Assembly: GCA_025357945.1 (NCBI GenBank)
Contig: JANYLJ010000034.1
Span: 50,742 to 114,741 of the forward strand
Reading direction: 5' to 3'
DNA: 64,000 bases
Source: Gemmatimonadota bacterium
GTDB taxonomy: Bacteria > Gemmatimonadota > Gemmatimonadetes > Gemmatimonadales > GWC2-71-9
The translations under genes and the position numbers were made by a program. Of the stretch, positions 14,486 through 27,208 are shown piece after piece; the first letter of the stretch is position 1, and each line of letters begins with the position of its first letter. The notes beneath the pieces were generated by a model. That model was given only the letters and a program-made list of their open reading frames with translations, searched no databases and had not been told where the DNA came from.

Positions 14486-14540
14486 GAAGGGTGTACGCCG
14501 GACCGTTGCAAAAGGATGATCGGAACGGCCAGGTGGCCGG

Positions 14541-14625
14541 GAGCCGTGAGCCGGGAGCCCCGGACGGTAAGCTAGCGTGTGAGGCGCGCACGCTAGCTCA
14601 ACCTGCGGCCTCACGGCTCACGGCT
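14541..14625. repeat. Family B element, copy B1: GTGAGCC-type arms around GCTAGCGTG...CACGCTAGC
   Basis: gagccgtgagccgggagccccggacggtaagctagcgtgtgaggcgcgcacgctagctcaacctgcggcctcacggctcacggct. Confidence 0.9.
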
Positions 14626-15940
14626 GGTGTTGTCGCCTCAATGTCAACCGTGCCTCACACCCCCTGCCCCCTGTGCGATTGATCAATGCCAGTCTACCGC
14701 CATGCGCTTCCGCGATCTGTCGTGACAGCACCAGTCCGATGCCAGTCCCACCAGGTTTGGTGGTGAAAAACGGTACGAACAGGTTGGCCGAATCGGGCAG
14801 GCCCGGGCCGTCGTCCTCCACCACGAGGGCGAAGCCACCGCCCGTGCTGCTCCACCGCACCCGCACACCGCCATCGGTGGCTGCGGCAGCGTCGACCGCA
14901 TTGGCGATCAGGTTGATGAGCAATTGATCGAGCTGATCGCCATCAGCGTGTAACGTGACATCCGGGCCGGGAATCACCTCGATCACCATGCGCGTCTCGA
15001 GCCGCACGGTGCGCTGGACCCATTCCGGCACGTTGACCGGTCCGAATCGGGGTGGCGGCAGGCGGGCCAGCCTCGTGTACGAGGCCAGGAACCGGCTCAG
15101 CCCTTCGGATCGTGATGCGATAACGCCCAGGCCGCGGTCCAAATCGTCGCGGAGTTCGCCCTCGGGCGGCGATCGGCCGAGGAGGTGTTGCAGGCGATCG
15201 GCGATCGAGCGGATCGGCGTGAGCGAGTTGTTGATTTCGTGCCCCAGCACCCGGATGAGGCGCTGCCACGCCAGCCGTTCCTCCTCGCGCAGCGCACGAC
15301 TGACGTCGGCGAGCAGGACGAACTGATGCGGGCGGCCACCCTGCCGGAACCCGCCGCGGCGAAGTTCCCAACGACCAGCCGTGCCACCCACGTGCAGCTC
15401 GATTAATCGCGGCGCATCACCAGACAGGCAGCCCGCCAACCCCAGTTCATCCGCACGCCGGCCGAGCAAGCGCCCGGCGGATTGGCCGAGCAGGCGCTCG
15501 CCGCTGGCGTTGACGAGGCGGAGCGCACCGGCGTCATCGAAGGCGAGCACCGCGACGTCAATCTCGCCCATCACCCGCTGCAACAGCGCTGTCGCCTCGA
15601 GTGCCCCGAGGCGGCGCTCGCGCAGTTCGTTCATCAGCGAATTGAGCTCGAGCATCGCCAGCCCCAGCGCGTCCTCGGGACTCGAGCGGCGAGCCCGCAG
15701 AGAATAGTCCTGTTCGCGAATCGCGGCGAGCATGTTGGACAGGGTCTGCAGCGGCCGAATCACCCGCTCGCGGAGCGCCATGGCACAACTGAGGGAGAAC
15801 ACGACCAGTGCGATCGCCAGTGTCCACTGCACGCGCGGCGCGAAGTCGCCGGTCCAGAGCAGGACGACCGCAACGACCAGCGCGGGGAGGCCGGCGACGA
15901 GCGCGAGGAGCGTGATCTGGCGTTCGTGGGAGGGGGGCAT
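14618..15940 (-). CDS. NtrY-like sensor histidine kinase (HAMP-PAS-HisKA-HATPase)
   Basis: LGHEINNSLTPIRSIADRL...LINLIANAVDAAA...FVPFFTTKPGGTGIGLVLSRQIAEAHGG; stop codon lies in repeat B1. Confidence 0.82.
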   Translation of the reverse strand: MPPSHERQITLLALVAGLPALVVAVVLLWTGDFAPRVQWTLAIALVVFSLSCAMALRERVIRPLQTLSNMLAAIREQDYSLRARRSSPEDALGLAMLELNSLMNELRERRLGALEATALLQRVMGEIDVAVLAFDDAGALRLVNASGERLLGQSAGRLLGRRADELGLAGCLSGDAPRLIELHVGGTAGRWELRRGGFRQGGRPHQFVLLADVSRALREEERLAWQRLIRVLGHEINNSLTPIRSIADRLQHLLGRSPPEGELRDDLDRGLGVIASRSEGLSRFLASYTRLARLPPPRFGPVNVPEWVQRTVRLETRMVIEVIPGPDVTLHADGDQLDQLLINLIANAVDAAAATDGGVRVRWSSTGGGFALVVEDDGPGLPDSANLFVPFFTTKPGGTGIGLVLSRQIAEAHGGRLALINRTGGRGCEARLTLRRQHQP

Positions 15941-15963
15941 TCTAGGAGATCATTTCAGTTTGG

Positions 15964-16050
15964 TGAGTCGTGAGCCGTGAGCCGTGAGCCCGGACGGTAA
16001 GCTAGCGTGTGAGACGCGCACGCTTGCTCAACGTGCGGGCTCACGGCTCA
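15964..16050. repeat. Family B element, copy B2
   Basis: tgagtcgtgagccgtgagccgtgagcccggacggtaagctagcgtgtgagacgcgcacgcttgctcaacgtgcgggctcacggctca. Confidence 0.9.
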
Positions 16051-16060
16051 TTGCCGTCTG

Positions 16061-17442: not shown

Positions 17443-17972
17443 CGTGAGCCGTGAGCCGTGAGCCCGCAGTCGGCGTTAGCGCGTGCGTCGTTGAGCCCCG
17501 CGCGGCGGCAAATAATCCCGGAACGTTGTCCAGTCAATGGCATTCTCGACTCGCCGACAACAGGATTGAATGCTGGGCGATTTCAAGGGTCTCAAGGTCT
17601 GGCAGCGCGCCCACGCGCTTACGCTGGACGTGTACGCGTTCACGCGCCGTTTTCCATCGAGTGAAAAGTACGGACTTACCTCTCAGTTACGGCGTGCCGC
17701 GGCCTCAATTCCCGCCAACATTGCCGAGAGCCGGGGTCGCATCGGTCACCGCGATCAAGAGCGCTTTCTGCATATCGCCCAAGGATCCGCGAGAGAGCTT
17801 GAACCCCATCTGTTGCTTTCCCGTGACCTATTGTTGATGCGACGGGATACGGCGGACCTCGCCTTGGCTCGGGTCGCGGAGGTGCAGCGCATGCTCGCCG
17901 CCTTGATCTACAAGAAACTGTGACCCCGGCGGCCGGCAGGCTAACCTCGCGTCTGGGGCTCACGGCTCATGG
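17443..17972. mobile_element. Family B inverted pair (B3) enclosing a four-helix-bundle gene; candidate ORF-bearing form of the repeat
   Basis: Left arm gtgagccgtgagccgtgagcccgcagtcggcgttagcgcgtg (~17443-17485); right arm ggctaacctcgcgtctggggctcacggctcatggct (~17940-17975); only the S23-like ORF between. Confidence 0.5.
17570..17923 (+). CDS. Four-helix-bundle protein (S23 / 23S rRNA intervening-sequence type)
   Basis: FKGLKVWQRAHALTLDVYAFTRRFPSSEKYGLTSQLRRAAASIPANIAESRGR: signature of the family. Confidence 0.9.
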   Translation: MLGDFKGLKVWQRAHALTLDVYAFTRRFPSSEKYGLTSQLRRAAASIPANIAESRGRIGHRDQERFLHIAQGSARELEPHLLLSRDLLLMRRDTADLALARVAEVQRMLAALIYKKL

Positions 17973-18006
17973 CTTGTCGCACACGGCGATTCACCGGTCA
18001 ACTCGC

Positions 18007-23616: not shown

Positions 23617-23732
23617 CAGCAGCCGTGAGCCATGAGCCCGTGGGTTGAGTTAGCGTGCACCCGCACGCGCTAGCGTACCGTCCGGGGCTCACGGCTCACG
23701 GCTGCTGTTCACGGGCTCGTGGCTCATGGCTG
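23617..23732. repeat. Family B element, copy B4
   Basis: cagcagccgtgagccatgagcccgtgggttgagttagcgtgcacccgcacgcgctagcgtaccgtccggggctcacggctcacggctgctg plus additional heptamers. Confidence 0.9.
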
Positions 23733-25942: not shown

Positions 25943-26038
25943 GGAGCCGAAAGCCGTGAGCCGAAAGCCCCACACGGTAGGTTAGAGCGCGCGCGCGTCA
26001 CGCGAACTCAACCGACGGACTCATGGCTCATGGCTTAT
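25943..26038. repeat. Family B element, copy B5 (diverged)
   Basis: gcggagccgaaagccgtgagccgaaagccccacacggtaggttagagcgcgcgcgcgtcacgcgaactcaaccgacggactcatggctcatggctt. Confidence 0.8.
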
Positions 26039-27208
26039 CGCTCCCTGCGACACGTCGTCCTGTTACTGCTTCTCGGCCTCTTCGCTCGATCTGCCCGCGG
26101 CCAGACCCCCGCCGACACCCTCCGCGCCGACGCCTGGCTCGAGATCCACATCGTGGACGTCGGCCAGGGTGACGGCATCTGGATTCACACCTTCGACGAT
26201 AGCATTCCCGGCAACGGTCGCTTCCAGGGCAAGAACATCGTGATCGACGGTGGTCCCGTGGGTGCCGACGCGAAGAATCCCTTCCTCGCCTACCTCCTGA
26301 ATGGGATACACGGGCCGGCTGTCATCGACGCCTTGATCGTCACCCACCCGCACGTGGATCACTTTCCCGGAGCGTCTGGCGTGGTGCGGCACTACGACGT
26401 GTGTGACTACTACGATCCGGCGTATCCGGACTTGGGGGTCGAGTATCAGCGCTTCCTCGACCTCGTGTCGCACGGCCACTGCGGTGACCATACCACCGCG
26501 ATGCACATGGGTCGCCCGAGCTTCGGGTCGCCCGATTGGGGCTCGGAGCTGAAGATCGAGTTCCTCTACGCCTGGCCGGGGTCGCCCGATGGGCTCGGCC
26601 ACGGCAACACGCTCATCAACAACGCGTCGATCGTGATGAAGCTGACCTACGGCACACAGAGCATCCTGTTCATGGGCGACGCGGAGGGAAAGGAGCGCAA
26701 TGACTCACCAGCGACGCCCAAGTACGTCGAGGCCCGGCTGCTGGCCTCCCTCACGCCGGAGCAGCTGAAATCGACCGTGCTCAAGGTGGCACACCACGGC
26801 AGTGAGACGTCGAGCACGCTGCCGTTCATTCGGGCGGTGGATCCGGCCATCATCGTCGTGTTATCGGGGCGGAAGTCATTCGGGGGAACCTATCTGCCGG
26901 ACGCGACCACGTTGCAGCGGTATTGCGACTTCAACCCGGCGATCCGGATCTACCGCACCGACCAGGACGATGAAGCAGAAGGCCGCACCAACGCGACGTC
27001 GGCCGACGGCGACGACATCGTGATCCGGATGAACGGGAAGCGGACAGAGGTGATCGCGTACGAAAATGGCAAGCCGTTTACACCGAAGGCTTGCAATAAC
27101 CAGGAGAGACGAGAGACGAGAGACGAGACAAACCCAGCTGGCATCGGTACAGCGACACCGCTGTTCTTTTATCGTCTCTCGTCTCTCGTCTCTCCTCACA
27201 TCACGTAA
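26030..27208 (+). CDS. Secreted ComEC/Rec2-like MBL-fold metallohydrolase with repeat-encoded C-terminal tail
   Basis: LEIHIVDVGQGDGIWIHT; VTHPHVDHFPGA; LFMGDAEGKERND; VLKVAHHGSETSS; tail [35 protein letters not shown]. Confidence 0.82.
   Translation: MAYRSLRHVVLLLLLGLFARSARGQTPADTLRADAWLEIHIVDVGQGDGIWIHTFDDSIPGNGRFQGKNIVIDGGPVGADAKNPFLAYLLNGIHGPAVIDALIVTHPHVDHFPGASGVVRHYDVCDYYDPAYPDLGVEYQRFLDLVSHGHCGDHTTAMHMGRPSFGSPDWGSELKIEFLYAWPGSPDGLGHGNTLINNASIVMKLTYGTQSILFMGDAEGKERNDSPATPKYVEARLLASLTPEQLKSTVLKVAHHGSETSSTLPFIRAVDPAIIVVLSGRKSFGGTYLPDATTLQRYCDFNPAIRIYRTDQDDEAEGRTNATSADGDDIVIRMNGKRTEVIAYENGKPFTPKACNNQERRETRDETNPAGIGTATPLFFYRLSSLVSPHIT
27104..27194. repeat. Family A element: 23-bp inverted heptamer arms, 45-nt loop
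   Basis: gagagacgagagacgagagacga at 27104 and tcgtctctcgtctctcgtctctc at 27172-27194. Confidence 0.95.

Follow-up and report, generated by a model that had tools for sequence, protein, structure and literature searches.

To our knowledge, proteins of the S23 (23S_rRNA_IVP) family have long been known only from split ribosomal RNA genes. What, then, is the role of an S23 gene that lies elsewhere in the genome of a Gemmatimonadota bacterium, enclosed by inverted arrays of the heptamer GTGAGCC? The gene is located in a stretch of 64,000 nucleotides (the window), a part of contig C73 of a draft genome of 3.01 Mb that is 99.8% complete. A prediction made earlier from the letters of the window (the original prediction) saw in it a candidate parent form of a dispersed repeat. 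Having compared it with S23 genes of many phyla, we lean, on balance, to the view that the S23 gene and its inverted arrays make up one two-part repeat system, similar in its working to REP (repetitive extragenic palindrome) sequences and their transposases, the RAYTs.

The translated window gene (117 amino acids, forward strand) matched the Pfam profile PF05635 with E=1.2e-33 and 115.9 bits (cut-off 33.8), and TIGR02436 (‘four helix bundle protein’) with E=2e-32. The model of Avd, a protein of diversity-generating retroelements (DGRs), produced a weak match of 24.9 bits, under its cut-off of 80. For the AlphaFold2 model of the protein (pLDDT 94.7) the closest fold in the PDB was Xcc0516 of Xanthomonas (2GSC, TM 0.94), whose solved structure is a ring of five subunits. 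Next in order came BT_0352 and then the DGR Avd and the DGR reverse transcriptase (RT)-RNA particle (TM ~0.8), which agrees with the earlier statement that Avd and S23 share a fold. The arms are complementary at 95% over 19 nt as an inverted repeat and stand 490 nt apart; PF05635 was the only domain identified in the enclosed open reading frame (ORF), and no Y1 (HUH) transposase was found between the repeats. The arms therefore do enclose only an S23-like ORF, as originally described. It is the single PF05635 gene of the genome (G000). An Rfam scan of the window matched no RNA family and left the gene outside any 23S rRNA helix. Sites resembling a pair of GTGAGCC units numbered 34 in the window compared to 15.0 +- 3.7 in shuffled sequences, with none of 100 shuffles reaching 34.

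How general is such an arrangement? By protein similarity alone we gathered 171 S23 elements, from 80 loci on genome contigs in many phyla, from relatives of the window's genome (S23 was present in 102 of 121 of them, with up to 14 copies per genome) and from 10 plasmid loci; many of the genomes were metagenome-assembled genomes (MAGs), and arms scoring below the thresholds escape detection. Period-7 arrays (at least 20 matches of 28, no further than 300 bp from S23) were observed at 55% of S23 flanks compared to 5% of control windows placed further out at the same loci, while periods other than 7 and 14 were present at 0-4% of the flanks. At least one side carried a period-7 array in 79 of 106 S23 loci. 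Strongly inverted flanks (score of at least 16) were found for 58% of the 171 elements, compared to 1% when flanks were combined across genomes; stand-alone S23 genes do, therefore, lie repeatedly between inverted arrays. In genomes with at least three S23 copies, the arms of the same element paired in 75% of cases and mis-paired arms of the same genome in 1%. Therefore, the arms are private to each S23 element. The left array ended at a median distance of 72 nt upstream of the S23 start codon, and the right array began at the stop codon. Chance or plain replication slippage unconnected to S23 could be thought of, since heptamer simple sequence repeats (SSRs) are common in some bacteria (PMC4692102, PMC4679880); we give this idea practically no credence, as it is refuted by the 10-fold enrichment at S23 flanks, the period specificity and the own-arm pairing.

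The arrangement reaches far beyond what the window could reveal, but the unit is lineage-specific: GTGAGCC belongs to the window's lineage only, and most S23 genes have a unit of their own. No S23 gene was found in phages. Cyanobacterial plasmid copies sit in conserved operons and are of little help on the question of mobility; one copy on a Pseudanabaena plasmid (L202:1501-1860) has cas6 and cas4 as its neighbours, and its long AAAAGCT/AAAAGCC arrays are in direct, not inverted, orientation.

The unit followed the protein. Among elements at different sites, the unit was shared by 38% of pairs with S23 identity of at least 60% and by about 1.5% of pairs below 45%. Between phyla, where we used named records only, unit similarity tracked S23 similarity with a Mantel r=0.468 (P 0.0005; the highest value of 2000 permutations was 0.271), and the unit was shared by 43% of pairs at 60% identity or above compared to 0.7% below 45%. 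Co-variation of this kind is consistent with a transfer of the gene together with its arms, with a protein that recognises the unit, or with both.

Within the arms, the median array length was 32 nt, i.e. 4.6 units. Within the unit, the two positions that varied most were adjacent in 62 of 108 arrays (36, i.e. 1/3, expected), giving a conserved core and a variable spacer of 2 nt, e.g. TCAGCNN. Permuting the order of units in the right arm left the pairing of the arms undiminished (among 41 elements, only 7% reached P<=0.1); therefore, it is the shared unit and not an exact palindrome that is conserved. Maintenance of an exact palindrome by quasi-palindrome correction was rejected, since the unit order is not matched between the arms. 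We also rejected the idea of the heptamer as a stop-codon device: stops were clearly enriched only on the outward-read strand (per 7 nt, 0.58 vs 0.27), as termination of S23 would require, but not as a general rule.

The same permutations speak against an explanation at the RNA level, modelled on the intervening sequences (IVS) of rRNA, as exact pairing is not under selection. There, the arms would pair in read-through transcripts, RNase III or terminators would act on the resulting long stem, the S23 message would be cut out and the insertion tolerated; S23 would bind its own RNA stem, and spread would be left to recombination and horizontal transfer. Such a view draws on the right array covering the S23 stop codon in 69 of 112 cases, on the part taken by Avd, which has the S23 fold, in the DGR RT-RNA particle, and on rRNA itself. 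On plasmid AZO_p2 of Azospirillum lipoferum an S23 gene (L201:1522-1857) lies within 23S rRNA (RF02541) between GAGGACG-type inverted arms; the PLSDB table gives no feature for it. The IVS of Coxiella has tandem GACAGAT heptamers upstream of S23, and its stem is cleaved by RNase III (PMC4990558). The original prediction set spread between genes apart from the rRNA case; the window element is indeed intergenic, but the rRNA IVS turned out to be no separate thing. On the other hand, a promoter-like AATG[AG]T is seen in relatives (e.g. L208, L214, L243) about 42 nt upstream of the S23 start and inside the left arm, so that the S23 message would be without that arm, and the RNA-level account leaves dispersed hairpins with the S23 unit unexplained. 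We consider it doubtful.

Those hairpins became visible when occupied and empty sites were compared. In the sister genome G006 the genes flanking the window's S23 element are only 69 bp apart; in another sister, G009, other genes take up about 3.4 kb at this position (L174:3750-7160). Two trios of sister species, G072/G058/G036 and G057/G071/G034, gave further cases. In G072 two genes converge, and an S23 element (L207) separates their stop codons; at this site G058 has 33 bp (84% flank identity) and G036 has another S23 with different arms. The element L249 of G057 corresponds to 23 bp in G071 (GATTAG-TCCCTGCTAGCGAAGCGTCATGC-CCAGGTT) and to flanking matches 64 bp apart in G034. The pairs of empty and occupied alleles that the original prediction called for therefore exist (window/G006, G072/G058, G057/G071 and G057/G034). 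No clear target site duplication could be read at the empty sites, at a flank identity of only ~80-84%. By eye, array units provide the stop codon or the C-terminus of the neighbour gene at the insertion point (L207:1850-2400, L249:1880-2420).

In the occupied genomes G072 and G057 many short matches to the unit of their own S23 element are scattered, with few or none of them in the sister genomes. The ORF-less hairpins that we inspected, ten loci in G072 and eight in G057, carried the units of the resident S23 element. They were mostly inverted pairs with loops of ~5-45 nt, different in every copy, and thus had the arms alone in common within these two sister genera. In Moorena bouillonii (G121, locus L115), where S23 has AGGGAAC arms, GGGAACAGGGAACAG, the S23-arm unit, had 840 exact matches compared to 1 for the reversed control, with 0-210 in other cyanobacteria and 0 in the tested Alphaproteobacterium and two relatives. 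Xanthomonas has 183-186 GGGAATC arrays, mostly of four units and with 70-75 in convergent pairs (PMC4692102); a link of these arrays to the S23 protein Xcc0516 is a lead. In G071, inverted GCGGATT arrays surround ~120 nt (L424:1445-1635), and this loop is old host DNA, because G057 has the aligning sequence without arrays.

Some hairpins retained their place and changed their unit. Within ~13 kb of synteny, a GATGGAAT hairpin (period 8) of G072 corresponds to a GGCGGTTG hairpin (period 8) of G036, and the S23 element L216 of G036 itself has GGCGGTTG as its unit. Another site has ATTCCGTC vs GGCGGATC. Two GGCGGTGGAG hairpins (period 10) of G057 have counterparts of GGGGGAGGTT type, also of period 10, in G071, one of them in G034 as well, and GGGGGAGGTT is the unit of S23 elements L251 and L243 (G071, G034). 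In the swapped hairpins the unit had changed in both arms, with position and period (8 or 10) unchanged. Swaps were seen at 4 of 6 comparable sites, a small sample; a GAACGCG hairpin was identical in G057 and G071, and a GTCGGACG hairpin of G057 was absent from G071. Units such as GGAGGGCGGT and GGAGGTTGGG could be linked by gradual concerted drift; one G071 site has an intermediate look.

Other elements have stayed where they were. Some occupy one position across several genera, e.g. adjoining the presumed start of mnmG, where the S23 proteins mostly rank among one another's best matches (59-88% identity) and several left arms do not pair with the right arm of the neighbour (cross score ~8-10, own 11-35). 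At a presumed ychF/H+-PPase site the S23 site-mates split into two S23 groups, and therefore re-insertion at favoured sites may occur as well. The dN/dS ratio (nonsynonymous to synonymous substitution rate) of S23 was 0.03-0.09, with dS often >1, i.e. S23 is under strong purifying selection.

In the window's own genome, the four ORF-less copies (B1, B2, B4 and B5) with arms similar to those of the S23 element were found as described, and at least 12 more were added. They have the arms around a short common core, with the consensus AGCCGTGAGCCGTGAGCCCCGGACGGTACGCTAGCGTGCG..CACGCTAGCTCAACCCACGGGCTCACGGCTCACGGCT. Since the left core of one such copy (L180) resembles that of the S23-bearing copy, the latter belongs to the B family. 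Copy B2 is missing from G006, where 24 bp stand at its site. The proposal of an S23-bearing founder is thus largely right in that ORF-less copies with the same arms are present in the same genome; a simple origin by deletion from one parent does not fit the hairpins of G072 and G057, whose loops all differ, although the B copies do have a core in common. The nine inverted pairs that were detected when 444 kb of this genome were scanned belong to another hairpin family, (GAGACGA)n/(TCGTCTC)n, in which the loops differ. From their translations, the neighbours of the window's S23 gene, both on the reverse strand, would be a sigma-54-type regulator gene and an ABC-permease-like gene.

Features of the S23 element and of related repeats in the window
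Feature	Positions	Strand	Basis
S23 / 23S_rRNA_IVP four-helix-bundle gene, 117 aa	17570..17923	+	PF05635 profile, AlphaFold2 fold
Left array GTGAGCCGTGAGCCGTGAGCC, (GTGAGCC)x3	17444..17464	+	read from sequence
Right array GGGGCTCACGGCTCATGGCT, GGCTCAC units, inverted complement of left array	17955..17974	-	19 nt, 95% complementary
Sub-terminal TTAGCG motif; left end CCCGCAGTCGGCGTTAGCG	17470..17485	+	near-match to CCCGCAGGCGACGTTAGCG of ORF-less copy L180
Inverted sub-terminal GGCTAACC	17939..17950	+	read from sequence
B1, ORF-less copy	14539..14628	+	arms without S23
B2, ORF-less copy; missing from sister G006, present in G009	15963..16051	+	arms without S23; sister comparison
B4, ORF-less copy, reverse orientation	23618..23706	-	arms without S23
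B5, ORF-less copy	25949..26038	+	arms without S23
(GAGACGA)n/(TCGTCTC)n hairpins	1967-2012, 2715-2846, 27098-27202		inverted arrays

What could move the arrays? Genes with the RT domain RVT_1 were absent from the window's genome and from the S23-rich G036, G089 and G096, and were present in 6 of 61 relatives. An RT acting in trans was rejected on its absence from the window's genome. Copying of a non-autonomous element via RNA by a DGR-like RT, with S23 in the role of Avd, appears accordingly very improbable, for all the Avd fold and the weak match to the Avd model. The window's genome has a single Y1 transposase, and the S23-rich G089 and G096 have none. Y1 loci do have inverted flanks, yet period-7 arrays were observed at only 4% of 27 of them (RT loci, 0%), and RAYT/IS200 was rejected as the mover. 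For the earlier suggestion of an RT or transposase with the same arms, no RT was detected in the genome, and its one Y1 transposase gave no evidence of common arms. An unrelated factor could also move the arrays, which would then be repeats of the host or selfish ones, with S23 merely inserting or hitch-hiking. Array families without S23 exist (GAGACGA), and the S23-poor window's genome has many hairpins. Still, neither Y1 transposase nor RT abundance tracks S23 abundance, the Y1 flanks are of another kind, the arms are private per S23 gene, and the unit follows S23 similarity across phyla. We find this passenger role of S23 unlikely.

We thus return to the two-part system as the preferred reading, which builds on the association with arrays, the private arms, the co-variation of unit and protein, the presence or absence at sites, the same-unit hairpins and the purifying selection. 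It has the look of a REP-like mobile repeat system, apparently not described so far, spread over many phyla and with no recognised transposase. The S23 ring would have as its cognate a tandem unit of 7 nt (8, 9 or 10 in some lineages), laid out in inverted arrays of ~4-5 units around the S23 gene and also scattered genome-wide as dozens of gene-less hairpins. Each subunit of the ring may read roughly one unit, a conserved core plus a variable stretch of 2 nt, on DNA or RNA in single-stranded form, and this reading may promote the spread, maintenance or correction of cognate arrays. Host replication or repair enzymes would do the work; we propose them since neither a transposase nor an RT occurs consistently. 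The five subunits of the ring, the count of 4-5 units in an array and the make-up of the unit from core and spacer are in accord with one another; on this view the ring would bind the arrays. More tentatively, we suggest a new class of mobile repeats, in which a ring protein without a transposase reads 7-10-nt units and seeds inverted arrays around genes, cognate hairpins are rewritten in place when the unit changes, and rRNA IVS, possibly Avd too, are side branches.

Several observations weigh against the preferred reading. That S23 binds or moves arrays is our supposition: neither binding nor movement was observed, and we know of no catalytic motif in S23. About 1/5 of S23 genes have no clear arms, and a few (L202) have direct arrays. 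A number of S23 loci have a long history of vertical inheritance (dS >1) and were not mobile recently. Joint inheritance without recognition could yield the co-variation of motif and protein. In 400 kb of the S23-rich G089 no ORF-less hairpin passed the threshold applied, and the evidence on dispersed copies comes mostly from MAGs. The GAGACGA family has no S23 of its own detected in the window's genome. The original prediction had named as signs of its failure S23 genes of relatives without arms while B elements abound in genomes without S23, or a lack of empty and occupied alleles; the former holds in part, for the GAGACGA hairpins, but the allele pairs exist.

S23 proteins are widespread and structurally solved but have no function assigned, and the heptamer arrays of cyanobacteria, Xanthomonas and Beggiatoa have no described maker. 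Our analysis links the two, and both are testable with one protein and one oligonucleotide. If the link is true, rRNA intervening sequences, and possibly the Avd of DGRs, would be part of a wider class of elements. The unit swaps add a case of concerted change among dispersed bacterial repeats.

Among the known systems, the closest likeness is to REP/RAYT (REPINs), with a gene between two inverted cognate repeats, dispersed hairpin copies, genome specificity and co-variation of repeat and gene (PMC2817692). The S23-array system is not a member, since it is without a Y1 transposase: S23, with no cleavage activity known here, is in its place, the arms are tandem arrays with a period of 7-10 nt, and in two families the dispersed copies have loops that bear no relation to one another. 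The 23S rRNA IVS of Leptospira and Coxiella have the same protein family, an S23 ORF within an inverted-repeat loop and, in Coxiella, recorded heptamers (PMC4990558), whereas the window element is intergenic between protein-coding genes and has ORF-less relatives. The Avd of DGRs shares the fold and belongs to a pentamer family, but the window's genome has no RT. Miniature inverted-repeat transposable elements (MITEs) are likewise short and ORF-less, with inverted ends in common with a longer element. As to sub-terminal sequence, the B copies have a common core and L180 resembles the ends of the S23 copy, while the G072 and G057 hairpins share arms only; unlike MITEs, the system has no parental transposase, and the loops are not common to the copies in two families. 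The heptamer SSRs (GGGAATC in Xanthomonas, TAACTGA in Beggiatoaceae, and cyanobacterial repeats) are dispersed heptamer arrays as well; the available text of their descriptions draws no link to S23, and Xcc0516, the solved S23 structure, comes from the very genus of the GGGAATC arrays.
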